Shown in pieces: positions 9,260 through 61,528 of a stretch of 64,000 bases of DNA. Origin of the DNA: Cymodocea nodosa (lineage: Eukaryota > Streptophyta > Magnoliopsida > Alismatales > Cymodoceaceae); contig CM072343.1 in assembly GCA_036874045.1 (NCBI GenBank), positions 13,970,001 through 14,034,000 of the forward strand, read 5' to 3'. Position numbers and translations under genes: made by a program. Position 1 is the stretch's first letter, and every line of letters starts with the position of its first letter. Under the pieces are notes generated by a model, which saw only the letters and a program-made list of their open reading frames with translations, was not told the DNA's origin and searched no databases.

Positions 9260-9292
9260 GAGATATATGATGTTGTTGACATAGATGAATCA

Positions 9293-23840: not shown

Positions 23841-23870
23841 TATGGTTACCTAGCACGACACCAGAAAGCT

Positions 23871-28924: not shown

Positions 28925-28933
28925 TTGTTGATT

Positions 28934-30485
28934 CTATATAACACAAACAAAAATTTTAGTAGAGACAAAAATTAACATAACTACTACACACCCTCATGGA
29001 GTTAGGGCATAACTCAATGGATTAAGTTCATTGAGTTAAGGACTAACTCTACGATACTATTAACTATAAATAAACTTATATATACATATATAGTTACTTC
29101 AGTTATATTACTTCATTCAGCTATCCTCCTAGAAGAGGTATCAATTTTTCATTAACAGTTCTATTGACAGGGTTAGGTACTACTTGTATTGGCAATCCTC
29201 TAGTGGGTCTAACTTCCATTGATTCCTTCTGTCTAAGGGGTATATTTCTATTTATATTTTGATTTGCAGTATTTCCAAATACAAAATCTAGACGATTGTT
29301 TAATTGTTAAATTATCTTTTCAAATTTCTCTATTCTAGATTCTTGTTCAAGTAATGTTTCATAACTTATATTCTTCTCATTTATATTTTCTCCACCTTGG
29401 AAATTGTTGTTTCTCCAAGATAAATTCGGGTGATTTCTCCAATTAGGATTATAAGAATTTCCAAAGTTATCTTTCTGGTTTCTAACATAAATATTATCTA
29501 GATCATTAATGTTTGCATTCTTTTTTGCTAGCTTTTGATTTAATGATAACTCTTTTATTTTCTTTGTTAATTCAGTTAATTTCACTTCAAGCATAGTACT
29601 TGAATCTATTTCATGCATTCTTCTTGGCAATATTCTTTTATCTGCAATAACTTCAACCGAGTTTTCCTACTGTGTAGTTCTTTTTGCAAAGTTTTCTAAA
29701 TATGCCCATGCTTCTTCACTACATAGTTTCAGAAATCCATTTTGACAAGTAGATTCTAATAAAGATTTCGTTGAAACATCTATGCCTTCATAAATTATAC
29801 CTATTAATTGTACTTTACTCATTGCATGATGTGGACATTGAGTTAGTAAATCTTTAAATCTTTCAAAATACTTCTAGAATGGTTCACCTTGTTTTTGACT
29901 ACACATTAATATTTGTTTTTTCTTTTTAATCATTTGATGTGTTGGATAATATTTTTCCAAAAAAATAGAGCAAAATTCAGTCCATGCAGAAATTGAATCA
30001 GGCGACAGAGTATATAACCATCTCTTAGCTGTCTTTTAAAGCAAAAGGGATATATCTAAGTTTAATAGCATCTATACTCATGTTCAGCATTTTCATCATT
30101 TAACAAACTTTGTTAAATTCTCTAAGGAAATAATAGGCATCCTCTTTTTCTAATCCATGAAAATGTGGCAATTGACTAATATAATTGGATTTCAGTTCAA
30201 ACCTATCTCCCTCAAAGTTTGGCAATCGAATACATGAAGGTTCATCAACTAATTCAGGATACAGAATTTCTCCTAATGGTTTTTCTACTGGAGCAGCCAT
30301 CTCTACGTTCTCTTTTAAAAAAAGGTTAGCTACACCCCAAAGGATTTCGTTAAAGTCCAGTTCAAAAAATGTTTCAGTACGCCTCTATGTTGAAAATTCC
30401 TAGGTAGGTGTTCTTACTAATCATTTAGTGCTTAGAGAATGAGTCCATGTGCTCATAAATAAACAACAGAAGATTAATTATATAC
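28934..30485 (-). other. Putative intron holding gag capsid, copy G
   Basis: On the minus strand the segment starts GTATATAATTAATC at 30485 and ends TTATATAG at 28934 (1552 nt). It ends 10 bases before the F-box start codon. The equivalent place in copy E is joined without it. The GT and AG ends match those of copy D at the same position. Confidence 0.7.
29121..30300 (-). pseudogene. Gag capsid relic of copy G (downstream of env-like)
   Basis: Starts MAAPVEKPLGEILYPELVDE at 30300, then IRLPNFEGDRFELKSNYISQ and LPHFHGLEKEDAYYFLREFN, the Athila capsid signature. Later parts include LTKKIKELSLNQKLAKKN and YNPNWRNHPNLSW without a zinc knuckle between them, although standard Athila gag has one there. 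The C-terminal stretch matches copy D. It lies entirely inside the putative intron 28934-30485. Broken. Confidence 0.8.
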
Positions 30486-31251: not shown

Positions 31252-33105
31252 TGTTTGTGTTTTCCCAGCACTACACTAGAAAAACTTGGATTTGTTACTT
31301 CTATTTTTTACTTAGTTAATTTATCTTTATGCCTATTCTTTCTTTTAGAAGTAAACAAACAACCTTTAATACAATTTAGATATTAATTTCAATTTGTACT
31401 TTAATTGCAAGTGCACAGTGTCTATTGTATCAGTGTGCAAGTACAAGTCGATCCCACAGGGAATTGCTGACGAATTTAAGAAATGTTTGATTGTGAACAA
31501 TTCAAATTTATATTCAATAAGCACTCCGTTAAGTTACAGTTAACTCAACGGACTAAGTTCGTTGAGTTATGGCTAACTCAACGGACTATCCTCGTGGACT
31601 TAAGTTAACTCCACGAGCCTGTCTTTTCTTTATAATACTGCTATTTACAAAGGAATTCGGCCAACCATTGGGCGATTCCACAAATTGTAAATAACATCAA
31701 TTAAGCTTTTTAGTGCTAGTTAACATTGGATTTATCATTATGCAATACTAACATTCAGATGATTCAAACAGTAACCATTAAAATCTTTAAGTTGTTTTGT
31801 ACAAACCAATTTCAGTAAACTGTAAAATTAAAACTAACATAAAACAATCATAAAACTGATACAGATAACATTAATCACGATACAACACAAACAATACAAC
31901 ACTCAAATACAACATACAAACAAAGATAAATTGATTTTGGTATTTTTGTTTTTATGTGATGGGCGAAAGGTGAAATGTAAAGTAATTTCACTTGACAGTA
32001 AATACTTCCAACACTACTTGCAACGTGATTACACCACTGAAAATTGAACCACTTACAATTCTGTCTCCTCTCCCTATAGAATCGCGAGTCCAAAATTGCA
32101 AGATGATCTCCTCTTCAACATACAGGCATCAACCCGAAGCCAAGGCTAAAAGCTTTACGATCTCCTGAAATATAAGTCGGCGCTTGGTGAAAATGTCTTC
32201 CCTTCCCGCGACGTGATCACTCCTCATAGTGGTTGTTAGGCACTGTGTTTGGCTCGGAATCGACCCGACATCAGGCAAGTATCCTCACAGATCTCTGATG
32301 ATTGGTGATTATGGTGGTGATATGATGGTTGGTGTGATACATCGGAGAATCGCCGATATTGTCTGAAGAAAGCTCGGTGCTCCTCCTTTGTATACACTGG
32401 CCATCCATCGATCACCCTCTTTCTTTTTTTCTTCTTTCCTTTTATATTTCTTCAGTGGTAACTACTTTTGCTTGAATGATCGGTTGGATTTCTTTCCTTC
32501 AGATCAACGGTGATGATTTCTTTCTCCCTACGCGATTGAATTCCTGCGTGATACGTGCGAACGTGGTTTTTCCTTCCAACTGTCTGTTCCTGCAACCGCT
32601 ACAGTGGCATATTAGAAAATATATAGTTCGTGGAGTTACAGATAACTCAACGGACTTCCTTCATTGATTTAACTATAATACACATGCAAAAATAACAACT
32701 TAAGTTTATAACGCTAACCTAACGCATTGCCTTAGTGTATTTTCATGTAACTCAACGCGTGTAGTTATGCTAACTTAACGAGTTATAACGTAAGTAAATC
32801 TACCAGCTCTCAACACGTGTCAACAGCAGTTTAAACATAAAATAACATTTCGGAGAGTTATAGGTATAACTATCCGATGCTCAGATGCATTTTCGGATAC
32901 TTAAGAATTTCACAGCCTGCAATTTACCGACAGTTCATAAATGTACTAAATTAACATTAATTCCACAAAATTATGTAGATTCTTCAATTAAAGCATATAA
33001 CATTGCAATTATAACATAATGGTATAATTCTCATATGATAAGCTAAATATTATGCAATTAACCATCATTTAACCGTTAATAATATGCACTTTTTCATTCT
33101 AAACA
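31252..33105 (-). repeat. Family Q 3' LTR of copy D (LTR-c)
   Basis: 1854 bp; the plus strand starts TGTTTGTGTTTTCCC and ends CATTCTAAACA. TATA-like box at 32439-32446. Three stacked hairpins lie at 31526-31551, 31560-31583 and 31591-31617. Near-identical to LTR-d. Confidence 0.9.
31526..31617. repeat. Three stacked hairpins in LTR-c
   Basis: CCGTTAAGTTA-N4-TAACTCAACGG, CGTTGAGTTA-N4-TAACTCAACG and CTCGTGGACTTAAGTTAACTCCACGAG-type inverted repeats follow one another with short gaps. The same trio occurs in LTR-b, LTR-d, LTR-e and LTR-f. Confidence 0.8.
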
Positions 33106-34891
33106 CTTCCCCCATACCTAAATTTTGCTAGTCCCTTAGCAAACTAAGATGTAATTAATTGGTCTTTCAAAAAGTGCTAGAATTAATTCTTCCCCTTTTG
33201 TTTTTTTTCTTCTGTTTAGCATAAACATATATTCTGTATGTTTTAGTAATCAACCTGCAAAGATATTTAGAATATATGTAAATTACATACAAAGTATATC
33301 ATCTTCATATAGGTGTTAATTATATTATCGTTTGTTCTTCTTTTCATCATATGTAATCCTAAATTTTCCAATAAGTTTTCTAGAAGAAATTTCAACAACA
33401 TACAAATCAAAGTACAATCCAATTCAATCTGATTAAGACAAGTAGAATAAAAAATTGTATTTCCATTAAACAACTTCAAAAGTCAATTCCAGATTCATAT
33501 TTCAGTAATTCTAGATAACAGAAAATATACTCGATTCATAAGATATCTGTATTTCACAAAACACTTGTATCTTTTCAGAACAGTATATGTTTTTTTCTTT
33601 TTCTTTTTTTTTTCTCTTTTTTTTTTTGTGTACTTTAAAAGTTAATTTGACAAGCTTGAATCATGCAAGAGCTTTCTAATGTACCAATGTAACGAGCTTT
33701 TAGTCAACAATCCCAGATCTGATCAAGATCTTAGGTTGCTAGATTTTCAGAGTCCTTTTTCAGGTCAACAATCCTTACATACCTATCTGCTCAAGTACAA
33801 AAGTCTCGTGATCAAACAAGTCAATAAACTCTCAATATATTTTTTTTTTTTTCTAAAAATAAATGCACACACAAAACAAAGCACTAATCACATACTGTAT
33901 ATGCACGTATTTCATTAATACAGATGTAGTAAAACACCAATCTCATATAATCATGCTTCTATCATTTACTAAAGATATGAATCCATAACAATAAGCTCAT
34001 ACTTTATCTATAGTTTAATAAGATCTACACATAAATCATTCTACAAGTTCAATCAGTCAAAGTAAATGTATCTTTCATCATATGTGTTTCATTTAATCTA
34101 GAATTCACATCTCAGCTCCTTCAGGACTTCAGATAATTTTCTGATTAAGCATTAAATATTCTGATTTCATTTTAAAATCGTGAAACTGTTAAACTCATGA
34201 AATTCAGAAAAATCATAAGATACTATATCGAGATTTACATAAATAATAAATTCTATAGCATCTTCTATAGCCTTTTAAATATAACATTCAAACAGTTTAT
34301 AAAAATTTTACAGTCTCAATTATCGGATAGTTACAGCAAGTTCATAAAAATTTTCAATTTCCTCAAAACTTTGCAGTACCATTTTAATTCCTTTAATTAA
34401 CAAACTTACATAGCTATTACTTTAATTACCTCCCCCCCATACCTACATTTTGCATTGTCCTCAATGTAAAAGATTTGACAATAAGTACAGTAATTATAGC
34501 AGGCATGAATAAAGTTTTGTTTGATTTAAAATTCAGGATAAGTAATTGGTTACATACCTTGTTCCATTTGTATCTCTTTCTGCATATTCCGATTTTTGAT
34601 TTTGAAAAACTTTTCATTCCTAGATAAACACAGAATATAAAACAAAATAACATTTAACAGATATTAATAAATCAGTGTCTTGTGTGGAACCCAGGCTCCT
34701 ATGCCTTTGGTGGCTCACAAGCAAGCCAGTTGGTTTCCCAGAACAGATACCAACAAACTGGATTGATATTTTGTTTTGTTTGTTTTTTGTTTTTTGTTTT
34801 ATAAAATGAACATAAAAAACTTCAAAATTCTTTCCTTTTTTTTCTAAAAATAAATGCAGAATACACAACATTAAACACACAAAATCACAGC
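33106..34891 (-). other. 3' spacer of copy D with two purine motifs
   Basis: Minus strand: GAGGACAATGCAAAATGTAG followed by GTATGGGGGGG (34428-34466) after the F-box gene, and GGACTAGCAAAATTTAGGTA followed by TGGGGGAAG (33106-33145) touching the LTR, the likely plus-strand primer. A T-rich microsatellite lies at about 33592-33630. Otherwise AT-rich with no supportable gene. Confidence 0.75.
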
Positions 34892-36031
34892 TTAAGAACA
34901 TGATTGAAAAGTAGAAACAAATGGAATAAATGTATCAGTCCAAGGAAACTTTTTAGGCATAGTTCTTCTTGCTATTAATTCTATTTTATTGCAGTTCTTG
35001 GTCATTTTTAATTTGTAAACATGCAATAAATTATAAATTCCAAATACGAGTGTATTACCATTAATGATATGTAATGCAGAAAGGGATCCTTTCTGGTTCC
35101 AGGGTAATGTAACAGTTTCTATTTCTACATCTATTTCAATATACTCCTCTTCCCACTTCCATTCATTCATATCTTCTATAATCCATATTTGAAATTTCAT
35201 CAGTTCATCCCACCATCATATCAGACATAAAGCAGGATCATCTTCTTCATTATACCACATTCCTATTTGAATTTTATTAAATTTTTCAGATGGTGGTTTA
35301 GCTATTTCACTCGGTACAAGTAAAATTTCTGTATAATCATCATAACTGTCTATGCTCACTATGTATAAATCAGATCTATATGCTATAGATATCTCTGTGA
35401 CTAAATATATATAACCATCAAGTATGACATGTGTTTGGTTAATTAATGATTTCTGTCCTAGATATATTATAATGTTTTCATTCCAAGATCTGTTTAGAAA
35501 ATTATACACACTTAAGCGTAAATCTTCACCCCAATTTCCTATAGGTCTCCAATAATATAATTTTTCAGGAATTGCAGAATTTTTATTAGAAAATATTAAA
35601 GCTGACCCACAATTTTCAATTGGTGCTTCAAATATATTAGGTCTTCCTATATTACATTCTTCTCTTGTTATAGGATTTCTTATCAAAATCTCAGGTAATG
35701 ATAAACTTGCATACCTTGGTCTCGTCTTGTATATGATTAATCCTTCATCTATCCCCATAATATGACTCATTCCTTCTAATGCATTAGTTGGAATTCCAAT
35801 AGTTTCTTCCATAGCTAGATATTCATGGGTATTTGAACTACGATTAAATGACCTCCATATGAATCAATCTCTAATCTTAGTCATTTTTGCAGCTTGTAGT
35901 CCCTGAAAATATTCTTCTTCAATACAGTCTTTAATTTCCTTTGATACACAACACATCCTGCACAGATCTTTAGTTGACAAGTTACTTAGTATTTCCCTTT
36001 ATGCATCCAACGGTAATTGCATTAATTCCAT
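34892..36031 (-). pseudogene. Captured F-box gene in copy D
   Basis: Same gene as in copies G and E. The start codon (MELMQLPLDA in the other copies) is at 36031, ten bases after the end of the putative intron, and the tail FIPFVSTFQSCS ends at 34892, giving about 380 codons. Landmarks are the N-terminal F-box, ILIRNPITREE, LRLSVYNFLNRSWNENI, HVILDGYIYLV, IQIGMWYNEEDDP and FQIWIIEDMNEWKWEEEY. The last resembles the conserved Trp strand of plant F-box-associated domains. A working product could in principle act through SKP1 on silencing or defence factors, but that is a guess. Lightly broken. Confidence 0.82.
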
Positions 36032-36040
36032 TTGTCGATT

Positions 36041-37582
36041 CTGTAAAATAAAAACCAAAATTAACAAAACTACTGCACACCCTCGTGGAGTTAAGGCATA
36101 ACGCAACGGACAAAGTTCGTTGAGTTAAAAATTAACTCTACGATACTATTAACTTAAAATAAAAATAAAAACATATATAAATACAGATAGTTGCTTCAGA
36201 TATGCTGCTTCATTCAGCTGCCCTCCTAGAAGAGGTATCAATTTCATTAACCGTTCTATTGACAGGATTAGGTATAGCTTGTATTGGCAATCCCCCAGTA
36301 GGTCTAACTTCCATTGGTTCCTTCTATCTAAGTGATATATTTCTATTCTGATTTTGATTTACAGCTTTTCCAAATATAAATTTTAGACGATTGTTTACTT
36401 GTTGGATTATCTTTTCTAATTTCTCTATTCTAGCTCCTTGTTCAATTAATACTTCATAATTTATGTTCTTCTCATTTATATTTTCTCCTCCCTGGAAATT
36501 GTTGTTTCTCCAAGATAAATTCGGGTGATTTCTCCAATTAGGATTATAAGAATTTCCCAAATTATCTCTCTGGTTTCCAACATAAATAATATCTAAGTCA
36601 TTTATGTTTGTATTCTTTTCTGCTAACTTTTGATTTAATGATAACTCTTCTATTTTCTTTGTTAATTCATTTAATTTCACCTTAAGCATAGTATTGGAAT
36701 CTACTTCATGCATTCCTCTTGGTAATAATCTTTTATCTGCAATAGCTTCAGTCGAATTTTCCCACTGTGCAATTCTTTTTGCAAAATTTTCTAAATAAGC
36801 CCATGCTTCTTCACTACATAATTTTAAAAATCCATTTTGACAAGTAGATTCTAATAAAGATTTCGTTGAAACATCTATGCCTTCATAAATTATGCCTATT
36901 AATTGTGCTTTACTCATTGCATGATGTGGACATTGAGTCAGTAAATCTTTAAATCTTTCAAAATATTTCTAGAATGATTCACCCTGTTTTTGGCTACACA
37001 TTAATATTTCTTTCTTCTTTTTAATCGTTTGATGTGTTGAATAGTATTTTTCCAGAAAAATAGAGCAAAATTCAGTCCATGTAGAAATTGAATCAGGCGA
37101 CAGAGTATATAACCATCTCTTAGCTGTATCTTTTAAAGCAAAAGGGCTATATCTAAGTTTAATAGCATCTATACTCATGTTCGGCATTCTCATCATTTGA
37201 CAAACTTCGTTAAATTCTTTAAGGAAATAATAGGCATCCTCTCTTTCTAATCCATGAAAATGTGGCAATTGACTAATATAATTAGATTTCAGTTCAAACC
37301 TATCTCCCTCAAAGTTTGGCAATCGAATACATGAATGTTCATCAATTAATTCAGGATACAAAATCTCTCCTAATAGTTTTTCTACTAGAGCAGCCATCTC
37401 TACGTTCTCTTTTAAAGAAAGGTTAGCTACACCCCAAAGAATTTCGTTAAAGTTCAGTTCAGAAAATTTTTCAGTACTCCTCTACAATGAAAATTCTTGG
37501 ATAGGTGTTCTTACTAATCACTTAGTGCTTTGAGAACGAGTCCATGTGCTCATAAATAAATAATAGAAGATTAATTACATAC
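36041..37582 (-). other. Putative intron holding gag capsid, copy D
   Basis: Minus-strand donor GTATGTAATTAATC at 37582 and acceptor TTTATTTTACAG ending at 36041 (1542 nt). The flanks ...GAAAGCTTCAAACT(A) and AATCGACAAATGG equal the two sides of the seamless join at 58773/58774 in copy E. The segment contains the whole capsid ORF. Donor and acceptor fit plant consensus well. Confidence 0.75.
36324..37397 (-). pseudogene. Gag capsid relic of copy D (downstream of env-like)
   Basis: Starts MAALVEKLLGEILYPELIDE at 37397. Athila capsid blocks follow: FELKSNYISQLPHFHGL, YYFLKEFNEVCQ, IKLRYSPFALKDTAKRWLY, STWTEFCSIFLEKYYS, then the second half with LIGIIYEGIDVSTKSLLEST. The nucleocapsid-side part has LTKKIEELSLNQKL and YNPNWRNHPNLSW but no CX2CX4HX4C, although that motif exists alone at 45938-45979 beside the primer site. 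Capsid would form the particle shell. Lightly broken. Confidence 0.85.
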
Positions 37583-38513
37583 TAGTTTGAAGCTTTCCAT
37601 TCTATAAATATTTGTTGTCGGATGAAGGTTGAATCAGCTACTTCTCCTTCCAGTTCCTCCAATGCTTCTCCTTTCTCTTAAAAGTGCTGGTAACTCGTAA
37701 ATAACATTCTGTTTCATATATATATTGCGCATCCATAAAGTGAATAAATCTCGTTGCAAGAATGTGTCTTGCAACGTGCATCGTGGTTCCTGTTTTAATG
37801 GGTACGTGTACCACAACTAATTTCAAATTTTGGTAACTACTAAACCGACGAAGTTTCATTTGTGGTTAAAAGAATAACCGTTCTGCTTAATCCATGAACT
37901 AACCTCGTTGAGTTACAGATTACTCAATAGAACTCAGTCGGTTATTATTGCTAACTCCACGGACTAACTTCGTTGAGTTACAGATAACTCAACGGAGTGA
38001 CCTTATATTATATTACTGATCTCGTGGAGTTACGGTTAACTCAACAGAATTACTTCGTTGAGTTAACATTTGGCAACTTCTAAGTTTCACTCTCGTAAGT
38101 TTTCTATTCTGTTTTTTTTTTTTCTTTTTTTTTTCTTTGTTTTTCATTTTGCTAACTGTAATAAAGTTAAATCTATGTCATTAATGCCTCATTTTGATTA
38201 AAATACATTTAAATCTAAACATTATATAAAGATTTAAATTACATGTCATTTTATGTTATGCAGAATTTACATTTTACCTTATAACATGTAGAAATTTTTA
38301 AGCAGTTATCGTGTCATTCAGCAAATTGTAAATCTGTTACATATTCATAAAGTTCCACAAATTACATAATATTCAATAAATTCTATTCATTTCACATTCA
38401 AATACGTATGAAAATTGCATCTGAAAAATTATATTCATTAATATGAATCAATTACATTACAAGTACATCATACAATTTCATACAATTTTACACAAGTAGA
38501 CGAACAATACAAT
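37583..38513 (-). promoter_or_regulatory. Hairpin-rich spacer upstream of capsid/F-box unit, copy D
   Basis: Between the env-like stop and the intron donor. Hairpins of the CGTTGAGTTA/TAACTCAACG type cluster at 37904-38066. A TATA-like ATATATATATGAAAC follows on the minus strand near 37715-37730. The next 150 bases, conserved in all copies (37638-37859 here), are the exon-like leader. This could be an internal promoter; the sequence shows only the arrangement. Confidence 0.45.
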
Positions 38514-40742
38514 TTAATCTTTATGCCTAAGTTCATCTACTTCCTTCTGGAGTTTTTCTAATTGCTGCTCTAATTGATTTATCCTCTCTACTGCTCCTGC
38601 AATTTCTCTAGAAGGTACAGCTAATTCTGTAGCTACAAAATTTCTGTATTCTTTCACTGAAATGATTCTAGATCTTATCCTTTTTGATGTCCATTTAGTG
38701 AAATCAATACTATCCACCATCAGTAGTGGAATCAAATCTCCATAAAATAATTTCTTCTTCACTGTTTTCAGCTTAGAGATAAAAACTGCAGACCAATTTA
38801 TTTGGATCTTATTTACAACTGCATACATGGCCCATTTGACAAATTGACTTAATTCTATGTCATGGCCCTGTCGTTGATAGACATTCTTAATCATAATGTT
38901 AGCTACCATGTGTGCTTTACCATTTAAATGCTTCAATCTGTTTAATAATGGCACACCAGGATTGATAGCTAAACAATCCTTAATTTGCTGCTCAGTCCAT
39001 TCAACTGCAGTTGTATCTTCCAAAATTTTTGTTCCTTCATTCTTTAAACCAAATATGTTGTGGAGAAGCTCTAGTGTTATCTGTACATCAGCTTCCTCCA
39101 CGTTTGAAATTAATCCTCCTTCTCCTTCTCTTAAATTTGCATAGAAACAGGGCACTAAATTCTCATATACTGCATGCCCTCTATCTTGAGATATAAATTG
39201 CAGTAGACCTTGGAATTCAAATAGATCTTTGATTTCTTGCATTCCATTCCAATTTACTGGTCTACTGTAAATAATATCGTAACCCCTTATTTCTTGGTAT
39301 TTGGTATAAGCTTCCTGACTACAAAAATGTACTTCATTCAAAATTGTTGTTTCAGTCGGGTTAGGAAGGTGACTTTGTTGCTCCAGAGGGGTTTGCTCTT
39401 GCTCTTCCTCTAGCATAGGCTGCATTTGGACATTCTCTTCAAATTCCTGAATTTTTGCTTTTGCTTCTGTCTATGGTGGTGAGCCGGTAGAACTCTCCAC
39501 TCTGTCTTGAATTCTTTCCATAATTTGCTGAAGAGTTTCTTTCTCTTCAGTGGAATTTGTGAAATTATTTTTGTCCAAATGGCTTCTTTCAGCCTCTTCA
39601 TTTTCTACTCGTTCTTCTTCCTCCTGACTACCAATCTGTTCTGTTACTGTTCTTTCTGATTCTATAACAGATTGGGATGGAGTCACGGGCAATTCAGTTT
39701 CTGCCCTAATTTCTGTTTCTTCTTGTACAGGCTACAAACTAATTTCAACCTGATTTTTTTCTTTTCTTTGCTCCTCCTGCTCCTCCTCAGACTCGGATAG
39801 CAGGTTAATAAAAATCTACTCCACAGGCCCTATAAAAATTGGTACTTCAGATTTAATTTCTTTATAATTAGGCACTTTTTCTTTTTCTTTCTTTTTTCTG
39901 ATTAGTTGTGCCTGTTCTTCCTCTTCATCTTCTGAAATTAAATCTACAAAAATAGGCTCTACAGGCTTTCGAACCACAGGTACTGGCTCTTCCTGTTTAA
40001 TTCTTCTAATAATTGCTAGTCTCGAAGGACCAACTTCAACTTCTTTTGCAACATCTCTAACAGCAGTTCTAGCAGTAGCTTCTTGATGTTGTTCCACTTT
40101 AATTTTATATTGGGCTTTCAACTTTTCTGCAGCCCTCTTTTTGTACAGTGCATCAAACACCAGGTGTGCTCTAGCCACTACCAAATCTTCTGATTCTCCT
40201 TAGTTTTTTCCAACTTGAACTAGTTCTGCAAATTCTCTTATTTCTTCTTCAGTCGAAGGCCCCATCATTTCTGCTTGTACCAATAGCTTAAATGGTGGAA
40301 CTGAAGGTCCAGACTGTTGCTCCTTAGGAACAGGTCTTTCAGTAGTTGGTTCCTCCCATTCTTTAGTTGCCTCTTCATTTGCTTTCCTTTCTTGCTCCCA
40401 GATCACCCGTTTAGCTTGTCTACAGATTCGTCTTTTGAACCAGAGTCGGGACTTACGCTGAATTAATTCTAGGGCAACTTCATTACTTGGCCTTATTTGT
40501 CTTTCTTTGCTTATAGCTATTTCTGTTGCTATTCTGATTCGTGTTTCCATTATTTGAGGTATTTGTATATCCATATCTACTAAATCTCTTCTAAACTTGA
40601 AAAGTTCTGATTCTACCTTCTGTAGCTCTTTCTCTCTTGTCGTATTTTTGATCTTCTACCGCGTGTGCCACTCTTCTGATTCCTTCAGAAATTCTGATGT
40701 ATCAACAACATCTTCCCAGAATTCAGGCGTCATCTTCCTCAT
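38514..40742 (-). pseudogene. Env-like gene (env-A) of copy D
   Basis: Begins near 40742 (MRKMTPEFWED-type start shared with E and G) and ends DELRHKD at 38514, about 740 codons. N-terminal part: charged helical segment. Middle: repeated acidic clusters (SEDEEEEQAQLIRKKKEKEK) and Gln/Glu-rich stretches. C-terminal third: a globular domain with FCSQEAYTKYQEIRGYDIIY, LFEFQGLLQFIS, VPCFYANLREGEGG, LLHNIFGLKNEG, NVYQRQGHDIELSQFV and NKIQINWSAVFISKLK, then a final coiled coil (INQLEQQLEKLQKEVDELRH). The globular part resembles the plant transposon-protein domain found in Athila. No membrane anchor is visible. Lightly broken. Confidence 0.78.
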
Positions 40743-41383
40743 CGTGGAGTTACACAAAAGCACGGAATCGCTCTGATTTCTACTGTTCTAGATTCTAAAT
40801 GATTTGTCGGATAATGCCCCTAAAACCCTAGGTTTTAGTTTAAATAAGCACTAAGTTTAGGCGAGTAATTGGGTCATTTCCCGAACCAACTATTACTATT
40901 TTATCCGCAGTCTTAGCTACAGTACTCCGTTGAGTTACAGGTAACTCAACAGACTAAGCTCATTGACTAACTCAAGACTTAACGGAGTATGCTCGTTGAG
41001 TTAAGCGTAACTCAATGGACTCCCCGTACAAACAAATATAATAATAAAATATTACAGAGAATAGTTTTTCTATTTTTTTTACAGGTTTAACCGATACTAT
41101 GCTTCGGTCAGACCTAAATATTTTTTATTTTTTTATTTTTCTTTCAATTGAACCGATACTATGTTTCGGTAAAACCAATATTTTTTCTGAAAATTAATAT
41201 ACAATTTTTTTTCCGGTTTAACCGATACTATGCTTCGGTCAGACCAAAATATTTTTTTAATTTTTTGGTCATACCGATGGATTCAGCCAGTTGAACCGCA
41301 ACTATTTTTATGTTATATATATATTTTTAATGTTTTTATTATTATTATTATATATATATATAAACACAAAAACTGATTTATTA
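40743..41383 (-). promoter_or_regulatory. Spacer between integrase and env-like, copy D
   Basis: Hairpins (GTTGAGTTA...TAACTCAAC) at 40926-41021; a TATA-like TTATTTAAAC and telo-box-like AAACCTAGGGTTTT (minus strand) at about 40826-40850, some 100 bases before the env-like start. A tandem array of ACCGATACTATGCTTCGGT-type hairpins lies at 41088-41290, then an (AT)n tract at 41318-41362. Looks regulatory; function is inferred. Confidence 0.5.
41088..41290. repeat. Tandem hairpin repeat near pol end, copy D
   Basis: Three units of about 60-70 bp, each with AACCGATACTATGCTTCGGT (ACCGA/TCGGT stem) and a T-rich spacer, with a partial fourth. Copy E has about one unit (55270-55302), so the array differs in length between copies. 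Confidence 0.75.
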
Positions 41384-42834
41384 CTAAGTAAAACTCGAGT
41401 AGTCCTCTACTCTAACTTCTTCTATAATTCCAAAGGAGCTTTTTGGTGTTTTCAGAATAGGTTTAAGTCTTTGTCCATTTACTTTAAATATATTCTGATT
41501 TTTAGGATTTTCAATTTCAATACCTCCATAAGGATAAACATTTCGAACTATGTAAGGTCTTACCCATCTAGATCTTAATTTTCCTAGATGGTTATGGAGT
41601 CTAGCCATATAAAGATATACTTCTTGTCCTATTTCAAAGTTTTTAGGAATAATTTTTCTATCATGCTAGAATTTAATTTTCTCTTTTTCTCTTACAGTCT
41701 TTGAATAAGCTTCATTTCTAAATTCTTCTAATTCAATTAGTTGCATTTTCCTATTTTCAGCAGCTTGATTTAAATTAGTGTTCAGAGTTTTTAATGCCCA
41801 ATAAGCTTTATGTTCTATTTCAGCAAGTAAATGACAACTTTTTCCATATACTAGCCTAAAAGGTGACATACCTAAGCTCGTTTTATAAGCAGTTCTATAA
41901 GCCCAAAGTGCATCAATCAATCTATTAGCCTAATCTGTTCTAGTAGGATTTACTACTTTTCCAAGATTAATTTAATTTGTTTGTTTGCACTTTCTACTTG
42001 TCCACTTGTTTGCGGATGATATGATATTGCAATTTTGTGGTTTATTCCATATTTCTTCATTAAGGCTTCAAAACTTCTATTACAGAAATGAGTTCCTCTA
42101 TCACTGATAATAGCTTTAGGTATTCCAAATCTAGCAAATATATTTGTTCTTATAAATTGTATTACCACTTTGTTATCATTAGTTTTTGTAGGAATAGCTT
42201 CTATCCATTTAGATACATAATCCACCCCCAACAATATGTAATTAAATTGATTAGATATAGGAAATGGACCCATAAAATCTATTCCCCACACATCAAAGAT
42301 TTCAACCTCAACAATAGGATTAAGAGGCATCATATTCCTCTTTGATATTCTTCCTATTTGTTGACATCTTAAACAACTTAAGCAATATTTATGAGCATCT
42401 TTGAATAGTGTTGGCCAATAAAACCCACATTGCAGAATTTTTGCAGTAGTTTTCCCTGAACCAAAATGTCCTCCACAAGCTTGGTCATGACAGAAAGACA
42501 ATATGCTCGAATATTCAGTTTCTGGAACACACTTCCTTACAACCAGATCAGGACATTTCTTAAATAAGTAAGGGTTTTCCCAATAGTAATATTTTACTCT
42601 TGAGAAAAACAATTTCTTATCCTGTCTATTCCAATCCTTAGGTGTTAAACCAGTAACTAAGTAATTAACTATGTCTGCATACCAAGGCATTGTGTTAATG
42701 GTCGTTAATTGTTCATCAGGAAAATTATCCTTAATTTCAATATTTGATTTTTCTATTTGTAATCTTGATAAATGATCTGCTACTACATTCTCACAACCTT
42801 TTTTATCTTTAATTTCTAGATCGAATTCTTGCAA
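41384..42834 (-). pseudogene. Integrase of copy D
   Basis: N-terminal zinc-binding region (HDQACGGHFGSGKTTAKILQ, then CLSCLRCQQIG); catalytic core with [19 protein letters not shown] and TSGQVESANKQIK supplying the Asp-Asp-Glu residues; C-terminal part with [21 protein letters not shown] and a beta-rich tail (LGKLRSRWVRPYIVRNVYPY). It ends near 41384. The stretch before it (VADHLSRLQIE) is the RNase H-integrase linker. Few breaks. Confidence 0.87.
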
Positions 42835-43005
42835 TAATAATATCCATCAGATCAATCTAGGTTTAGTTTCTTTTTTCTTTATTAGATGTTTTAGAGCTGA
42901 ATGATCCGTGTATACTATTACTTTAGCTCCAATCAAATATGATCTAAACTTTTCTAAAGCAAACACAACAGCTAATAATTCTTTTTCAGTAATTGTGTAA
43001 TTAAC
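42835..43005 (-). pseudogene. RNase H C-terminal part, copy D
   Basis: Continues the polymerase ORF: the [15 protein letters not shown]-type block and [15 protein letters not shown], matching element I and copy E. Worn. Confidence 0.7.
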
Positions 43006-45162
43006 TTAAGCATCATTTAAGGTTTTGCTTGCATAATGAATCACTCTAGGAGATTTTTCTATTTTCTGTCCTAACACTGCTCCTACAGCAAAATCAGAAG
43101 CATCGCACATTAATTCAAATGGATGGTTCCAATTAGGTGCTTGAATTATAGGAGTTGAAATTAAGCTAGTCTTAAGTCTAAAAAATGCTTCCTTGCAATT
43201 TTTATCAAAGTTAAATGGAACATCTTTTAATAGATTAGTTAAAGGTCTAGCTATCTTGCTAAAGTCTTTAATAAATCTTCTATAAAAACCAGCATGTCCT
43301 AGAAATGATCTAATATCTTTTACTGATTTAGGTTCTGGTAGATTAGAAATTACTTCTATTTTAGCATTAACTACTTCCAACCCTTTTTTAGAAACAACAT
43401 GTCCTAAGACTATTCCTTGTTTAACCATGAAGTGACATTTTTCCCAATTTAAAACCAGATTTTTTTCCACACAGCGTTTTAATATTTGGTCTAAATTGCT
43501 TAAACACACTTCATATGAGTTGCCATATACAGTAAAATCATCCATAAATATTTCTAAAAATTCATCAGTCATTCTAGTAAATATGCCCTGCACACACCTT
43601 TGAAAGGTAGCTGGTGCATTGCATAATTTGAATGGCATTCTTTTAAAAGCATAAGTTCCGTTAGGACAGGTGAAAGTTGTTTTCTCTTGATCCTCTAATG
43701 CTACTGGAATTTGATTATACCCTGAATACCCGTCTAGGAAACAAAAATATTCTTGCCCTACTAATCTTTCCAGCATTTGATCTATAAAAGGTAAGGGAAA
43801 ATGATCTTTCCTAGTCACAACATTCAGCTTTCTATAATCTATACATACTCTCCAGCCTAATTGAATTCTAGTAGGTATCAAGTCTTGACTTTCATTCCTA
43901 ATAACTATTAATCCTGATTTCTTGGGAACTACATGGATTGGACTAACCCACGAGTTATCAGAAATCGGATATATTATATCATTATCTAACCATTTAACTA
44001 TTTCCTTCCTGACTACTTCCTTAAGGTTTGGATTTAATCTCCTCTCAGGAATTCTAACAGGTTTAGCATTCTCTTCTAAATATATGTGGTGACAGCATAA
44101 AGTTGAACTTAACCCTTTTATATCAGTCATAGTCCATCCTATTGCTTCTTTATAACTTTTTATTACATCTTTTAATTTAGCTATTTGATCCTCTTTCAAA
44201 TCTAAAGCAATAATGATTGGACAGGTCCGTTTAACTTCCAGAAATATATAGGTTAATTCAGGAGGTAAAGGTTTTATTTCTAAATGCTGCCCATTAAAAG
44301 CTAGAGCTCCTAATTGAACATCATCATTTTTTAAATTAATTTCTTCCTGATCTCCTTCTATATTTATGCTTTCACTTTCTTCTAAAGTTTTAGAATTGAT
44401 TTGCCTATTTAATTCTTCTTGAATCACATCATCTAACATATCTCCTTCATCCTCTAAAAAGTCTATGGTATGTAAGGACATTTCTAACTCCTCAAACCTT
44501 TCTGGTTTGAAAATATTTAATTGAGTATCCTCATTACCATATGCTAACTTCATTACTCCAGTTTTACAATTTATAACAGCCCCTGATGTTGCTAAAAATG
44601 GTCTTCCCAAAATTAAAGATGTATCACTATTTTTATGCTTAATTTGTTGGGAATCCAAAATTACAATATCAATAGGATATATAAAATTCTTGATTTTAAT
44701 TAAGACATCCTCTATTTTTCCTCTAGGGTATCTTATACTTCTATCAACTAATTGAATAACCGTACTAGTAGGAGTTAAGCCTTCTAATCCTAAGGATGCA
44801 AATATATCACTTGGCATAACATTTATACCTGCACCTAAGTCTATTAAGGTTCTTTCTAGAATGGTATTTCCTATGGTGCATGATATAATAGGGATTCCAG
44901 GATCAGATAACTTTTTAGGAATTTGTGGCAGAAATAGGTAGCTACTTTGCTCAGCTAAAAAAACCTTTCTAAGAACTTTTTGCTCTCTTTTCTCAGTACA
45001 CCAATCCTTCAGAAATTTAGCACAAGGTGGCATATTCTGCAATAGATCTAACAAAGGAATGTTAACTTGTACTTTTTCAAAAATTTCTCTGATTTTTTCT
45101 TGTTTTTCAGGAATTGTTTGTTGTAATCTTTCAGGATAGGGTGCTAAAGATTTTGATTTCAA
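43006..45162 (-). CDS. Protease-RT-RNase H polyprotein of copy D (718-codon open frame)
   Basis: The longest open frame in the window. Residues 1-70: Athila linker (LLDLLQNMPPCAKFLKDW). About 90-190: protease with DLGAG at 108-112 and SLILGRPFLATSGAVINC. About 290-470: connector with ICHHIYLEENAKPVRIPERR-like sequence. About 430-620: RT with WRVCIDYRKLNVVTRKDHFP, FLDGYSGYNQIPVALEDQEK and the palm motif FMDDFTVYG near 540. About 620-718: tether HAGFYRRFIKDFSKIARP and the start of RNase H (MCDASDFAVGAVLGQ). The preserved length suggests a young insertion. It is still part of a fossil element with breaks elsewhere. Confidence 0.9.
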   Translation of the reverse strand: MKSKSLAPYPERLQQTIPEKQEKIREIFEKVQVNIPLLDLLQNMPPCAKFLKDWCTEKREQKVLRKVFLAEQSSYLFLPQIPKKLSDPGIPIISCTIGNTILERTLIDLGAGINVMPSDIFASLGLEGLTPTSTVIQLVDRSIRYPRGKIEDVLIKIKNFIYPIDIVILDSQQIKHKNSDTSLILGRPFLATSGAVINCKTGVMKLAYGNEDTQLNIFKPERFEELEMSLHTIDFLEDEGDMLDDVIQEELNRQINSKTLEESESINIEGDQEEINLKNDDVQLGALAFNGQHLEIKPLPPELTYIFLEVKRTCPIIIALDLKEDQIAKLKDVIKSYKEAIGWTMTDIKGLSSTLCCHHIYLEENAKPVRIPERRLNPNLKEVVRKEIVKWLDNDIIYPISDNSWVSPIHVVPKKSGLIVIRNESQDLIPTRIQLGWRVCIDYRKLNVVTRKDHFPLPFIDQMLERLVGQEYFCFLDGYSGYNQIPVALEDQEKTTFTCPNGTYAFKRMPFKLCNAPATFQRCVQGIFTRMTDEFLEIFMDDFTVYGNSYEVCLSNLDQILKRCVEKNLVLNWEKCHFMVKQGIVLGHVVSKKGLEVVNAKIEVISNLPEPKSVKDIRSFLGHAGFYRRFIKDFSKIARPLTNLLKDVPFNFDKNCKEAFFRLKTSLISTPIIQAPNWNHPFELMCDASDFAVGAVLGQKIEKSPRVIHYASKTLNDA

Positions 45163-46027
45163 AGATCTTTTTCTTTCAGTTGATTTGTTTGATCATTTCT
45201 AGCTTCAATTGCAGATTCAGATTGTTCTTCAGTGATTTCTAGATTTTCAGCTATTACATTTTCATTATCATTTTGATTTTTACTCTTGTCCACCTTCATA
45301 TCATTTTCATTTTGAGTTCTTGGTGGTATATCAGTTCCAGATCTTAATGTTACACATACATCTTCCAGATTTTCGTTACTTTCATGATGTTTTTGTATAT
45401 CATTTTTGTGATTATGATCTTCAATTGTTTTAATTTTAATGTGCATTCTTTAAATTCTCTTACATTTGTGTTTTCTGTTTGTTGTATATTTTGCAAGTTG
45501 TGCAGGTTTATAACATTATAATTTTCATTGTCCTGTTGTAAAACTTGTATTTTCATTGCTTTTTTGTCTAATGCTTTTAATTTTGTTTCCAGATCATCTA
45601 ATTTCATTGCATTCAATTTTTGATCAATTTTCTTTATGACTTTTTCAGTTTCATAAATTATATCCTGTTTAGGTTCTGAATATGCCTCCATATAGTTTAA
45701 TTGGTTGACTTCTTATTGTTGACACACAAAGTATTCCAGTTTGTCCAGATTTTGCTCTATACTATGCTCTAGTCTGTCATAGTTGACCCAAACTTCAGTG
45801 TCTCTCATCATATTACACATTCTATACTGACCATCAGTTGGGTAAACTATAGGATTCTCATACTCGACTTTATTATATTGAGGATAATTCATTTGTTGTT
45901 CATGGGATCTATCAATCTGTAAATGTCTCAATTTCAAACAATCAGAAATGTTGTGTCCTTCAGAATTGCAAAATTCACATATGCTAATTAAAGGTTTCAG
46001 AAATCTTTGAGCATAAGCATATGCCAT
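45159..46027 (-). pseudogene. Zinc-knuckle ORF and coiled linker of copy D
   Basis: Starts MAYAYAQRFLKPLISI at 46027, about 105 bases after the primer site. A CX2CX4HX4C zinc knuckle (CEFCNSEGHNISDC) lies at 45938-45979, followed by a Tyr/Asn-rich stretch (MNYPQYNKVEYENPIVYPTD), heptad-like helices (NLDKLEYFVCQQ, IDQKLNAMKLDDLETKLKAL) and an acidic linker to protease. Zinc knuckles in gag bind the element's RNA. No capsid precedes it; the capsid domain is at 36324-37397. Lightly broken. Confidence 0.78.
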
Positions 46028-46087
46028 ATTCTCAATTACAAAAGAAAACACACAACTCTGACTATTAAAATGAAACAGCTCTGACAA

Positions 46088-46131
46088 TTGCTTATATCTA
46101 TTCAATTCAATTCAATTCAGTTCAATTCAAT
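46088..46131. repeat. (TTCAA)n microsatellite beside the primer site
   Basis: About eight imperfect TTCAA units abut the primer site of copy D; a shorter AATTG/ATTGA version is at 50401-50430 in copy E. Confidence 0.8.
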
Positions 46132-46132
46132 T

Positions 46133-46149
46133 CCCCGGCAACGGCACAA
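46133..46149 (-). promoter_or_regulatory. tRNA-Asp primer binding site, copy D
   Basis: Plus strand CCCCGGCAACGGCACAA, 15 of 17 bases matching the tRNA-Asp 3' end. Lies 7 bases inside LTR-d. Confidence 0.88.
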
Positions 46150-46156
46150 TAAAACT

Positions 46157-47995
46157 TGTCCGTGTTTTCCCAACACTACACTAGAAAAACTTGGATTTGT
46201 TACTTCTATTTTTTACTTAGTTAATTTATCTTTATGCCTATTCTTTCTTTTAGAAGTAAACAAACAACCTTTAATACAATTTAGATATTAATTTCAATTT
46301 GTACTTTAACTGCAAGTGCACAATGTCTATTGTATCAGTGTGCAAGTACAGGTCGATCCCATAGGGAATTGCTGACGAATTTAAGAAATGTTTGATTGTG
46401 AACAATTCAAATTTATATTCAATAAGCACTTCGTTGAGTTACAGTTAACTCAACGGACTAAGTTCGTTGAGTTATGGCTAACTCAACGGACTATCCTCGT
46501 GGACTTAAGTTAACTCCACGAGCCTACCTCTTCTTTATAATATTGCTATTTACAAAGGAATTCGGCAAACCATTAGGCGATTCCACAGATTGTAAATAAC
46601 ATCAATGAAGCTTTTTAATGCTAGTTAACATTGGATTTATCATTATGCAATACTAACATTCAGATGATTCAAACAGTAACCATTAAAATCTTTAAGTTGT
46701 TTTGTACAAACCAATTTCAGTAAACTGTAAAATTAAAACTAACATAAAACAATCATAAAACTGATACAGATAACATTAATCATGATACAACACTCAAATA
46801 CAACATACAAACAAAGATAAATTGTTTTTGGTATTTTTGTTTTTATGTGATGGGCGAAAGGTGAAATGTAAAGTAATTTCACTTGATAGTAAATACTTTT
46901 GACACTACTTGCAATGTGATTACACCACTGAAAATTGAACCACTTACAATTCTATCTCCTCTCCCTATAGAATCGCGAGTCCAGAATTGCAAGATGATCT
47001 CCTCTTCAGCATACAGGCATCAACCCGAAGCCAAGGCTAAAAGCTTTACGATCTCCTAAAATATGAGTCGGCGCTTGGTGAAAATGTCTTCCCTTCCGGC
47101 GATGCGATCACTCTTCACAGTGGTTGTCAAGCACTGTGTTTGGCTCAGAATCGACCTGACATCAGACAAGTATCCTCACAGACCTCCGATGATTGGTGAT
47201 TATGGTGGTGATACGATGGTTGGTGTGATACTTCGGAGAATCGCCGATACTATCTGTAGAAAGCTCGGTGCTCCTCCTTTGTATACACTGGCCATCCATC
47301 GATCACCCTCTTTCTTTTTTTCTTCTTTTCTTTTATATTTCTTTAGTGGTAACTGCTTCTGCTTGAATGATCGGTTGGATTTCCTTCCTTCAGATCAACG
47401 GCGATGATTTCTTTCTCCCTATGCGATTGAATTCCTGCGTGATATGTGCGAACGTCGTTTTTCCTTCCAACTATCTATTCCTGCAACCACTATAGTGGCA
47501 TATTAGAAAATATATAGTCCGTGGAGTTACAGATAACTCAACGAACTTCCTTCATTGATTTAACTATAATACACGTGCAAAAATAACAACTTAAGTTTAT
47601 AACGCTAACCTAACGCGTTGCCTTAGTGTATTTTCATGTAACTCAACGCGTGCAGTTATACTAACTTAACGAGTTATAACGTAAGTAAATCTACCAACTC
47701 TCAACACGTGTCAGTAGCAGTTTAAACATAAAATAACATTTCAGAGAGTTACAGGTATAACTATCCGATGCTCGGATGCATTTTCGGATACTTAAGAATT
47801 TCACAACCTGCAATTTATCGACAGTTCATAAATGTACTAAATTAACATTAATTCCCTAAAATTAAGCAGATTCTTCAATTAAAGCATATAACAGTGCAAT
47901 TACAACATAATGGCTTAATTCTCATATGATAAGCTAAATATTATGCAATTAACCATCATTTAATCGTTAATAATATGCACTTTTCATTCTAAACA
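46157..47995 (-). repeat. Family Q 5' LTR of copy D (LTR-d)
   Basis: 1839 bp, near-identical to LTR-c. TATA-like box at 47330-47337; hairpin trio at about 46430-46521; G-box-like CACGTG sites at about 47572 and 47705. The outer end at 47995 is followed by CTCCA. Confidence 0.9.
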
Positions 47996-48109: not shown

Positions 48110-48490
48110 TGTTTAGAATGAAAAGGTGCATATTATTAATGGTTAAATGATGGTTAATTGCATAATATTTAGCTTATCATATAAGAATTAAGTCATTATG
48201 TTATAATTGCACTATTATATGCTTTAATTAGAATTACTGCTTAATTTTGGGGAATTAATGTTAATTTAGTACATTTCTGAACTGTCGGTAAGTTGCAAGC
48301 TGTGAAATTCTTAAGTATCCGAATTTTCTGATATTTTGGACAGTTATGTTTAATATATTGAACATATTTCAGATAGTTATGTTTAACAGACCGAACATGT
48401 CGGATAGTTATGTTTAAATTACCGAACAATTTTGTTTTGAAAGAATATTTTATTATTTCCTGAAGTACACGTGTCAAAACCATAATGCAT

Positions 48491-48900
48491 GACTTAAGTG
48501 AACTTTCGGTGAGTTATCTCTAACTATCCGAAATTGCACCTGGGCATCGAATAGTTATATGTGTAACCCTCCGAAATCTCTTTTTATTTATAAAATAGCT
48601 GTGGACACGTGTCATGTTCTGGTAAAGTGACTTAAGTGGACTTTCGGTGAGTTAACTATAACTATCTGTAATGCATCTCAGAATCAGATTGTTAGACCTG
48701 TAACTCTCCGAAATGTGTATTTTATTATTAAACTGCTGCTGACACGTGTCGAGATTTGGTAGATTTACTTAAGTTATATATTAGTGAGTTATCTGTAACT
48801 ATCCGAAATGCATCTAAGCATCGGATAGTTAAGTTTGTAAGTATCCGAAATGCACCTGAGCATCGAATAGTTAAATTTATGCACGTGTTTTATAGTTAAA
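48491..48900 (+). repeat. 137-bp tandem repeats in U3 of LTR-e
   Basis: Units start with GACTTAAG-like sequence at 48491, 48629 and about 48765 (period 137-138). Each has a CGGTGAGTTA...TAACTATCCGA-type hairpin, an ACTCTCCGAAAT stretch and a CACGTGTC G-box. The third unit is incomplete. Confidence 0.75.
48604..48613. promoter_or_regulatory. G-box/ABRE-like palindrome in LTR-e
   Basis: GACACGTGTC, repeated at 48741-48750 and in LTR-b at 25422-25431. Plant bZIP and bHLH factors are known to bind ACGT-core G-boxes, many of them in abscisic acid or light responses. Use by this element is inferred. Confidence 0.5.
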
Positions 48901-49104
48901 TCAACGAAGAAAGTCCGTTAAGTTATCTATAACTCTACAGACTATTTATTTTCTAATATGCCACTGTAGCGGTTGCAGAAACAGGATAGTTGGAAGAAAA
49001 ACCACGATTGCATGTATTGCGTAGGGAGAAGAAATCATCACCGTTGATATGAATGAAGGAAATCCAACCGACCATTCAAGTAGAAGCAATTACTACTGAA
49101 GAAA

Positions 49105-49112
49105 TATAAAAG
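49105..49112 (+). promoter_or_regulatory. TATA-like box of LTR-e
   Basis: TATAAAAG in GAAATATAAAAGAAAAG, conserved in all Q LTRs, including 60222-60229 in LTR-f. Likely core promoter. Confidence 0.6.
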
Positions 49113-50383
49113 AAAAGAAGAAAAAGAAGAAAAGGGTGTGTGGGTGATCGATGGACGGTTAGTGTGTACAAAGGAGGAGCACCGAGCTTTCTACAGGTAG
49201 TATCGGCAATTCTCCAAAGTGCCATACCAACCATCGTTACCACCACCATATCCACCATAATCACCAACCATCGGAGGTCTGTGAGAATACTTTCTTGATG
49301 TCGGGTCGATTCTGAGCAAAACACGGTGCTTGACAACCACTGTGAGGAGTGATCACATCGCGGGAAGGGAAGCCATTTTCACCAAGCACCAACTCATATT
49401 TCAGGAGATCGTAAAGCTTCTAGCCTTGACTTCAGGTTGATGCCTGTATGCTGAAGAGGAGATTATCTTGCAATTTTGGACTTGCAATTCTATAGGGAGA
49501 GGAGACAGGATTGTAAGTGGTTTAATTTTCAGTGGTGTAATCGCGTCGTATGTAGTGACAGAAGTATTTAATGTCGATTGAGAATAAAACAGTGGTTTAA
49601 TTTACTTTGCATTTCACCTTTCGCCCATTTCCATGTTCATATTAAAACAAAAATACCAAAAACAACTTATCTGCTATTGTATGTTGTGTTTGAGTGTTGT
49701 ATTGTTTGTGTTGTATCATGAATAATGCTATCTTTGTCAGTGTTGTGATTGTTTTATGTTTGTTTTAGTTTTACAGTTTACTGAAATTGGTTCATTCAAA
49801 AGACTTAAAGATTTTAATGGTTACTGTTTGAATTATCTGAATGTTAGTATTGCTTAATGATAAATCCAATGTTTACTAACATTAAAGAGCTTAATTGATG
49901 CTATTTACAATCTGTGGAACCGCCCAATGGTTGGCCGAATTCCTCTATAAATAGTAGTACTAAAAAGAAAAGACAGGCTCATGGAGTTAACTTAAGTCCA
50001 TGAGGTTAGTCCATTGAGTTAGCCATAACTCAACGAACTTTGTCTATTGAGTTAATTGTAATTCAACGGAGAGCTTATTGAATATATAAATTTGATTGTT
50101 AACAAACGAACAGTTCTAAACTCTTAAGCAATTCCCTATGGGATCAACCTGTACTTGCACATTGATACAATAGACTCTGTGCACTTGTAGTTAAAGTACA
50201 AATTGGAATTAATATCTAAATTGTATCAAAGGTTGTTTATTTACTTCTAAAACAAAAAGAATAGGCATAAAGATAAATTAACTAAGTAAAAACAGAAGTA
50301 ACAAATCCAAGTTTTTCTGATACGTTATTGGAGATCTAATCAAATATTTTGGTGTCATGTTGGGAAAACACAAACAAGTTTTA

Positions 50384-50400
50384 TGGCATCGTTGTTGTGG
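50384..50400 (+). promoter_or_regulatory. tRNA-Asp primer binding site, copy E (worn)
   Basis: TGGCATCGTTGTTGTGG, 12 of 17 bases of the primer-site consensus; the differences are mainly C-to-T and G-to-A, typical of decay of methylated sites. Confidence 0.72.
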
Positions 50401-50486
50401 AATTGAATTGATTACAATTGAATTGAATTAATATAAGCAACTGTTAATAGCCAGAGTGTTGTGTGTTTTCTTCTGTAATTGAGAAT

Positions 50487-51416
50487 ATGGCATATGCTTA
50501 TGCTCAAAGATTTCTGAAACTTGTAATTGGCATATGTGAATTATGTAATTCTGAAGGACATGACATTTCTAACTGTTTGAAATTGAGATGTTTACAGATG
50601 GTTAGATCCCATGAACAACAAATGAATTATCCTTAGTATAATAGAGCCGACTATGAGAATCCTATAGTTTACCCAACTGATGGTCAGTATAGAATGTGTA
50701 ATATGTTGAGAGACACTGAAGTTTGGGATAGGTATGACAGACTGGAGCGTAGTATAGAGCAAAACTTAGACAAACTAGAATACTTTATGTGTCAGCAACA
50801 AGAAGTCAACCAATTAAACTAGAAGGAAGCATATTCAGAACCTAAAAAGGATATAATTTACGAAATTGAAAAAACCATAATGAAAATTGATCAAAAATTG
50901 AATGTAATGAGATTACATGATCTGGAAAGAAAACTAAAAGCATTAGACGAATATACAACGAAAATACAATTTATGCCGTAGGACAATGAAAATTATAATG
51001 TTATAAACCTACATAATTTGCAAAATATACAGTAAACAAAAAATATTAATGCAAGAGAATTTAAAGAATGCACTTTAAAACTAAAAACAATTGAAGATCA
51101 TAATCACGAAAATGATATACAAAAACATCATGAGAGTAATGAAAATTTGAAAGATGTATGTGTAACATTAAGATCTAGAACTGATATACCACCAAGAACT
51201 CAAAATGAAAATAATATGAAGGTGGATAAGAGTAAAAATCAAAATGATAATGAAAATGTAATAGCTGAAAATCTAGAAATCATTGAAGAACAATCTGAAT
51301 CTGCTAATGAAGCTAAAAATGATCAAACAAATCAAATGAAAGAAAAAGAATCTTTTAAATCACAATCTTTAGCACCCTATCTTGAAAGATTACAACAAAC
51401 AATACCTGAAAAATAA
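50487..51416 (+). pseudogene. Zinc-knuckle ORF and linker relic of copy E
   Basis: Starts MAYAYAQRFLKLVIGI at 50487. The zinc knuckle CELCNSEGHDISNC lies at 50535-50576, followed by the coiled linker and the acidic stretch up to LAPYLERLQQTIPEK. No capsid precedes it, as in copies A and D. Broken in a few places. Confidence 0.75.
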
Positions 51417-51461
51417 GAAAAAATCAGAGAAATTTTTGAAAAAGTACAAGTTAACATTCCT

Positions 51462-59921: not shown

Positions 59922-60044
59922 GTTGTGATTTTGTGTGTTTAATGTTGTGTATTCTACATTTATTTTTAGAAAAAATATAGTTTTCATTTTATTTTATAAA
60001 AGAAAAAAAAACAAAATATCAATCCAGTTTGTTGGTATCTATTC
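59922..60044 (+). other. Short 3' spacer of copy E
   Basis: Matches the beginning of the 3' spacer of D and G (CAATCCAGTTTGTTGGTATCT). The rest of that spacer is not represented before LTR-f. No gene. Confidence 0.7.
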
Positions 60045-61474: not shown

Positions 61475-61528
61475 CAACTTAATCAGATATTTTTCATACA
61501 ATTATATACAAGTAGACGAACAATACAA

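Follow-up and report, generated by a model that had tools for sequence, protein, structure and literature searches.

The window, by which we mean the whole 64-kb stretch of DNA analyzed here (C15:13970001-14034000 of a 375-Mb genome, a plant genome judging from its elements and the F-box gene), is a nest of related long terminal repeat (LTR) elements, whose features are listed in Table 1. From a reading of the matches, an older element, G, appears to have received both element D and element E in its leader. The pieces at 23843-31251, 47996-48109, and 61475-64000 were read as a single element G, split by these two insertions. D and E are oppositely oriented and separated by 114 bp, which gives the window a palindromic look. 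A divergent related element, F2, is flanked by an inverted pair of 3.2-kb sequences (5136-8340 and 19667-22788; 88.5% identical), which carries another open reading frame (ORF) resembling the PF20167-like ORF of D.

Table 1. Features of the LTR elements in the window (positions within the window)
Feature	Position	Strand	Basis or remark
Element F2, divergent related element	8326..13966	+	pol 8326-12237 and gag 12566-13966, same strand, ~330 nt apart
Intron of G with gag, GTATAT...TAG, 1,552 nt	28934..30485	-	Borders; gag match
Element D, LTR element retaining the gag intron	31252..47995	-	LTR ends; 5-bp target site duplication (TSD) TGGAG on both sides
3' LTR of D	31252..33105	-	Preceded by polypurine tract ending at 33106
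F-box gene of D, frame of 379 codons (disrupted in D)	34892..36031	-	ATG from tenth base past acceptor
Gag-containing intron of D, GT...AG, 1,542 nt	36041..37582	-	Borders; joined copies genome-wide
Second intron of D, 144 nt	36041..36184	-	Donor 2, 25 nt past gag stop; same acceptor as long intron
gag frame of D, from intron base 30	36210..37553	-	Contains stops in D; 447 codons when open
TATA-like box of D	37715..37724	-	Upstream of donor 1
Palindromic motif cluster shared with LTR, candidate internal promoter	37907..38065	-	Units 20/20 and 29/30 identical
ORF of D weakly matching PF20167 (putative plant transposon protein)	38514..39425	-	Below Pfam cut-off
Integrase region of D	41953..42834	-	Open frame; assigned by reading, no profile behind it
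Protease, reverse transcriptase, and start of RNase H of D	43006..45162	-	RVT_1, E 6.6e-27
First coding part of D: zinc knuckle (CCHC), no capsid	45713..46027	-	~130 nt past LTR; zf-CCHC_2, E 0.0017, below Pfam cut-off
Primer-binding site of D	46132..46149	-	After 5' LTR
5' LTR of D	46157..47995	-	LTR pair 94.8% identical
Element E, intron-minus	48110..61474	+	5-bp TSD CAACT; separate deletion at ~60043
Exon-exon junction of E, exact	58773..58774	+	Sequence inspection
F-box ORF of E, 198 aa to stop	58783..59379	+	F-box domain, E 5e-8

Element D reads, in order, LTR, zinc-knuckle part, protease-reverse transcriptase (RT)-RNase H-integrase, PF20167-like ORF, noncoding leader (exon 1), gag-holding intron, F-box gene, and LTR. 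It shows the paired LTRs with TSD, the primer-binding site, the polypurine tract, and the protease-RT-RNase H-integrase order of a Ty3/gypsy-type element, but its gag gene lies behind pol and not upstream of it. Pfam matches were obtained for RVT_1 and RNase H, and the protease match was weak (E 0.0026, below the cut-off). The primer-binding site is presumably close to the 3' end of tRNA-Asp, and from this and the look of the sequence we tentatively assign the D family to the Athila clade. The 3' end of E is without a polypurine tract. A deletion in this element, at window positions 60043-60046, extends from behind the F-box gene into the 3' LTR, spans ~2.1 kb relative to D, and includes the purine tract; by reading, it joins at a short common TCTG.

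The segment preceding the F-box gene starts with GTATGT in D and ends with TTTTACAG (ACAG), as determined by sequence inspection, while its counterpart in G starts with GTATAT and ends with TATATAG. In E, exon 1 (...CAGACTG, last base 58773) passes into AATCAACAAATGG (first base 58774) with no base added or missing. An initial annotation of this DNA had described a GT...AG segment in D and G and an exact join in E, and its borders are correct to the base; a comparison of the E join with the D and G borders found no extra bases. The capsid ORF that it had placed within the segment is likewise there, matching profile PF03732 in sense orientation (E 2.8e-8). Capsid matches within the window are confined to the D intron, the G intron, and the divergent element; the rest of D and all of E gave none.

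Both forms of the border are widespread in the genome. A 34-base pattern of the joined border was found at 210 places and the intron-containing donor pattern at 3,404 places, each with up to 3 mismatches; the reversed controls gave 0 in both cases, and the joined border is therefore not a product of chance. When the joined pattern was searched with 0 mismatches and 0-20 extra bases allowed, 127 places were recovered, and the gap was 0 in 100 of 100 among the matches listed. On contig C1, 64 of the 99 zero-mismatch exon 1 ends listed continue into the intron, 9 continue into the F-box exon, and 26 fit neither exact pattern, while zero-mismatch counts for this contig were 84 donors and 10 junctions. 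The share of intron-minus copies in the family is thus ~6-11%, depending on the count, the patterns differing in sensitivity (that of the exon 1 end alone matches 2,412 places). Conservation of the donor itself (GTATGT in 44 of 45) is not counted as evidence, as most copies were picked by their donor.

To place the intron-minus copies relative to the others, 86 rows (83 loci plus D, E, and G) were reduced to 63 by coverage filters and to 62 by the removal of one duplicate, giving a midpoint-rooted tree of 26 intron-minus copies and 36 others. The intron-minus state changes 19 times on this tree, and at least 10 of these changes are forced by well-supported branches; therefore, the intron-minus copies are not a single lineage. 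Shuffled labels gave 20.1 changes on average, and 190 of 500 shuffles were as low as 19. Small groups consisting of intron-minus copies throughout are uninformative on renewed movement, because this form was sampled far more densely than the intron-plus form. TSDs differ between the copies (CAACT for E, GGCAT for an intron-minus copy on C3, and TGGAG for D) and were intact in both intron-minus copies that could be read. The C3 copy had inserted within the gag gene of another copy. Exact and recurrent loss at GT...AG borders in independently inserted copies, as found here, is what characterizes intron loss of the retrocopy type.

Two sampled copies are devoid of a different piece, 144 nt long, which is bounded by a donor closely following gag and by the acceptor of the long intron. 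The second donor reads CAACTATCT^GTATTT in D, and its GT is present in 27 of the 34 copies with letters there. The corresponding junction was located at 13 places in the genome (control, 0), 3 of which have internal gag deletions. It is difficult to account for two introns with a common acceptor, each lost exactly, by anything but splicing, and we read both the recurrent exact loss of a GT...AG intron and this rarer second splice directly from the DNA. Given the exact joins, the scattered losses, the TSDs, and the second intron, we conclude that the segment is a spliced intron and that the spliced RNA was recurrently reverse-transcribed. The initial annotation had proposed reverse transcription of a spliced RNA from the precise loss in E and had named the alignment of more genomic copies as a check. 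With 210 joined-border places and intron-minus copies scattered in the tree, this check came out in its favor, and the proposal is now backed by ~200 joined copies, a second, alternative intron, and TSDs at both checkable intron-minus insertions.

In the D family gag has moved behind pol, and this order, likewise read directly from the DNA, recurs in divergent related families of the genome. The capsid of the F2 family is 50% identical to that of D over 134 residues, and gag in this family lies ~330 nt behind the integrase frame. Among the best 150 gag matches genome-wide (56-100% identical to the F2 family), 67 have an integrase end upstream on the same strand, at 0.6-0.9 kb in 64 cases and at 2.5-2.9 kb in 3. 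Comparison of the best 150 gag matches with the best 150 integrase matches yielded 0 pairs with a flipped strand, 0 with the integrase up to 3.2 kb downstream, and 0 with the integrase 4-9 kb downstream, which would be the canonical arrangement; the 83 of 150 gag matches without a partner among the integrase matches listed are uninformative and may include a canonical minority. For the D family on C1, 18 of the 100 leaders listed are followed on the same strand, at a distance of 6.5-12.5 kb, by an intron donor among those listed (controls, 3 and 1), with donors listed up to 18.1 Mb, and 15 of the 18 pairs are spaced by 8.1-8.5 kb. Ten gag homologs were found, and those of Tasmannia and Ipomoea carry gag followed by protease in one protein, which is the canonical order. 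The reversed gene order, which the initial annotation did not contain, is more surprising than the splicing.

The two genes fit closely between the splice sites. In an open copy, gag comprises 447 codons and fills the intron, starting at intron base 30 and ending 25 nt before donor 2 (D coordinates), and the F-box frame of 379 codons starts with its ATG at the tenth base past the acceptor. The latter frame is open in both intron-plus and intron-minus copies and matches PF00646 with E values of 6.9e-9 and 2e-10. Both frames are protected from shared indels. Indels common to at least two copies numbered 1 in gag and 4 in the F-box frame, versus 8 in the intron tail, 26 in exon 1, and 35 in the stretch behind the F-box gene; they accounted for 5 of 67 indels in the two frames versus 69 of 246 in flanking noncoding DNA (Fisher P 0.0003), which is more indel-prone as such. 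This constraint, too, is seen in the DNA itself. Substitution-based measures were less informative: dN/dS (gag, 0.53; F-box, 0.60; control frames, 0.47-0.59) and the allele-frequency N/S ratio gave a weak signal that is not usable (pooled transitions, P 0.02); values in control frames were no higher than in the true frame, and neither measure is used as support. Many copies carry decay-type stops, and substitution stops were missing from 1 of 45 sampled gag frames only, much of which can be explained by decay after insertion. An in-frame gag stop common to D, G, and the distant F2 had the look of a conserved recoding site; this was rejected, as stops vary across copies and are mostly of a C-to-T, decay-like kind, and stop-free copies exist.

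Since gag follows pol and another ORF, a ribosome scanning the genomic RNA would hardly reach it. Just upstream of donor 1, palindromic units nearly identical to those of the LTR are found, and a TATAWAW motif lies 135-143 nt upstream of this donor in 75 of 75 copies examined (12.3 in single-base shuffles), a conservation that may reflect common descent. The TATA box and the LTR-like motifs suggest a separate internal transcript. We consider it probable that the segment represents a spliceosomal intron within a Ty3-type LTR retrotransposon of plants in which gag lies behind pol and inside the intron, and in which an internal promoter is combined with a choice between Gag and F-box protein by splicing. 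Judged from the sequence features, such a gag/F-box splice switch, of which the initial annotation had proposed a form, is likely, and it would probably operate from the internal promoter. The putative promoter, made up of the LTR-like motifs and the TATA box, would give rise to a pre-mRNA with a first exon of ~100 nt. If this pre-mRNA stayed unspliced, or lost only the short intron behind gag, Gag would be the first long frame; upon removal of the long intron, the first frame would be the F-box protein. The LTR-driven genomic RNA would hold the same intron and, if spliced before packaging, would seed new copies without capsid. The F-box protein is probably an SCF ubiquitin-ligase adaptor acting on a host factor that keeps the element in check, a role guessed from its domain, as no homolog was found at E 0.001 among 2,686 candidates. 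With slightly more doubt than belief, we extend this to a plant Ty3 clade with inverted gene order in which splicing of an internally promoted transcript might pick either Gag or an F-box adaptor, and might thus set both the particle supply and the attack on a host factor, leaving a record in the form of capsid-less copies.

An alternative is that the intron is real but its splicing leaky and without function, with gag and F-box expressed by other means and intron-minus copies arising as by-products of cryptic splicing. The decay of most sampled copies speaks for this, as does the absence of gag from spliced copies, which may be dead ends; the tidy fit of both genes to the splice sites would, however, be unexpected, and we regard leaky splicing as an unlikely explanation. 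We attach very little credence to one or a few deletions at the DNA level that recombination or gene conversion then passed between copies. Recombination is easy among nested, near-identical copies, and the borders have one base (G) in common where exon 1 ends in G, but copies with exon 1 ending in A (e.g., C3:10870851) fit only the GT/AG join, and the second junction would need another lucky deletion at a GT...AG pair. The internal gag deletions with inspected borders, those of the copies L031, L050, and L059, are not bounded by GT...AG. It is equally hard to believe that the intron-minus form is ancestral and that the gag segment, with splice-like ends, was inserted once, a view already disfavored: one insertion would be common to D and G, but intron-minus copies recur across the midpoint-rooted tree instead of being set apart, the D, G, and E borders show no duplicated target, and two different segments with one acceptor have been lost.

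Splicing as the basis of an intron-borne gag has to be seen against described plant LTR elements with splicing, such as Bagy-2, Ogre, BARE1, and EVADE (PMC3735527, PMC12786077, PMC6317226, and PMC7264820). As described there, barley Bagy-2 and Athila-type Ty3 elements resemble the D family in being Ty3-type plant elements in which pol and the 3' LTR are separated by an extra sense ORF that splicing makes accessible, the env-like ORF being produced from spliced RNA (PMC7264820, PMC3735527). In the D family, too, the 3' ORF is preceded by a spliced intron, as known from DNA copies of the spliced form, but this intron holds gag, gag lies behind pol, and by profile (PF00646) the 3' ORF encodes an F-box protein. 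In the analogy to retroviral env drawn in the initial annotation, the roles are inverted: the structural gag gene lies in the intron, and the accessory F-box protein is the spliced product. Ogre (Ty3/Tat) shares a partly spliced intron; that intron, however, separates gag-pro from RT, has no gag inside, and upon removal leaves the polyprotein joined (PMC6317226). BARE1 and EVADE produce short gag RNAs and thus also tune Gag by splicing, but according to these passages splicing favors Gag (PMC3735527, PMC12786077), whereas splicing of the long intron removes gag in the D family.

Outside plants, the Cer1 element of Caenorhabditis elegans is similar in that a spliced RNA encodes an accessory protein (CERV) and the unspliced RNA carries gag; it differs in host and protein, and its unspliced genomic RNA is described as the mRNA of both GAG and POL (PMC10309623), in contrast to the D family with gag behind pol. 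Gypsy elements of orchids that acquired an AlkB-like domain are plant Ty3 elements that likewise contain a further, host-like ORF, but gag and pol form one ORF there, unlike in the D family, and the word F-box is absent from the text (PMC9289625). A paper on Pinus Gymny elements (PMC2633040) was considered as a precedent for the gene order and set aside, as the passage at hand concerned failed genome walking. In titles and abstract openings of the open-license literature, we came across neither a gag gene placed behind pol or within an intron nor an LTR element with an F-box ORF.

The common organization of LTR elements is given as LTR, gag, pol, LTR (PMC7264820). With LTR retrotransposons described as gag-first, a diverse and abundant group with gag behind pol, one family of which has it within an intron, would show that this order is not required, and it raises the question of how an excess of Gag is kept. 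The ratio of intron-minus to intron-plus copies provides a countable record of splicing and reflects the frequency with which spliced genomic RNA gives rise to inserted copies, a quantity otherwise hard to measure. That the element keeps its F-box ORF open suggests that host silencing may be attacked via protein breakdown.

Deletions in gag were also found in the copies L017, L054, L057, and L072. Those of L031, L050, and L059 had been considered as further introns but, given their borders, were taken as ordinary deletions. The gag deletions of the copy pairs L050/L059 and L031/L081 have identical borders, which are not GT...AG where inspected, and these common deletions suggest that gag-deleted copies were mobilized with Gag supplied by others.
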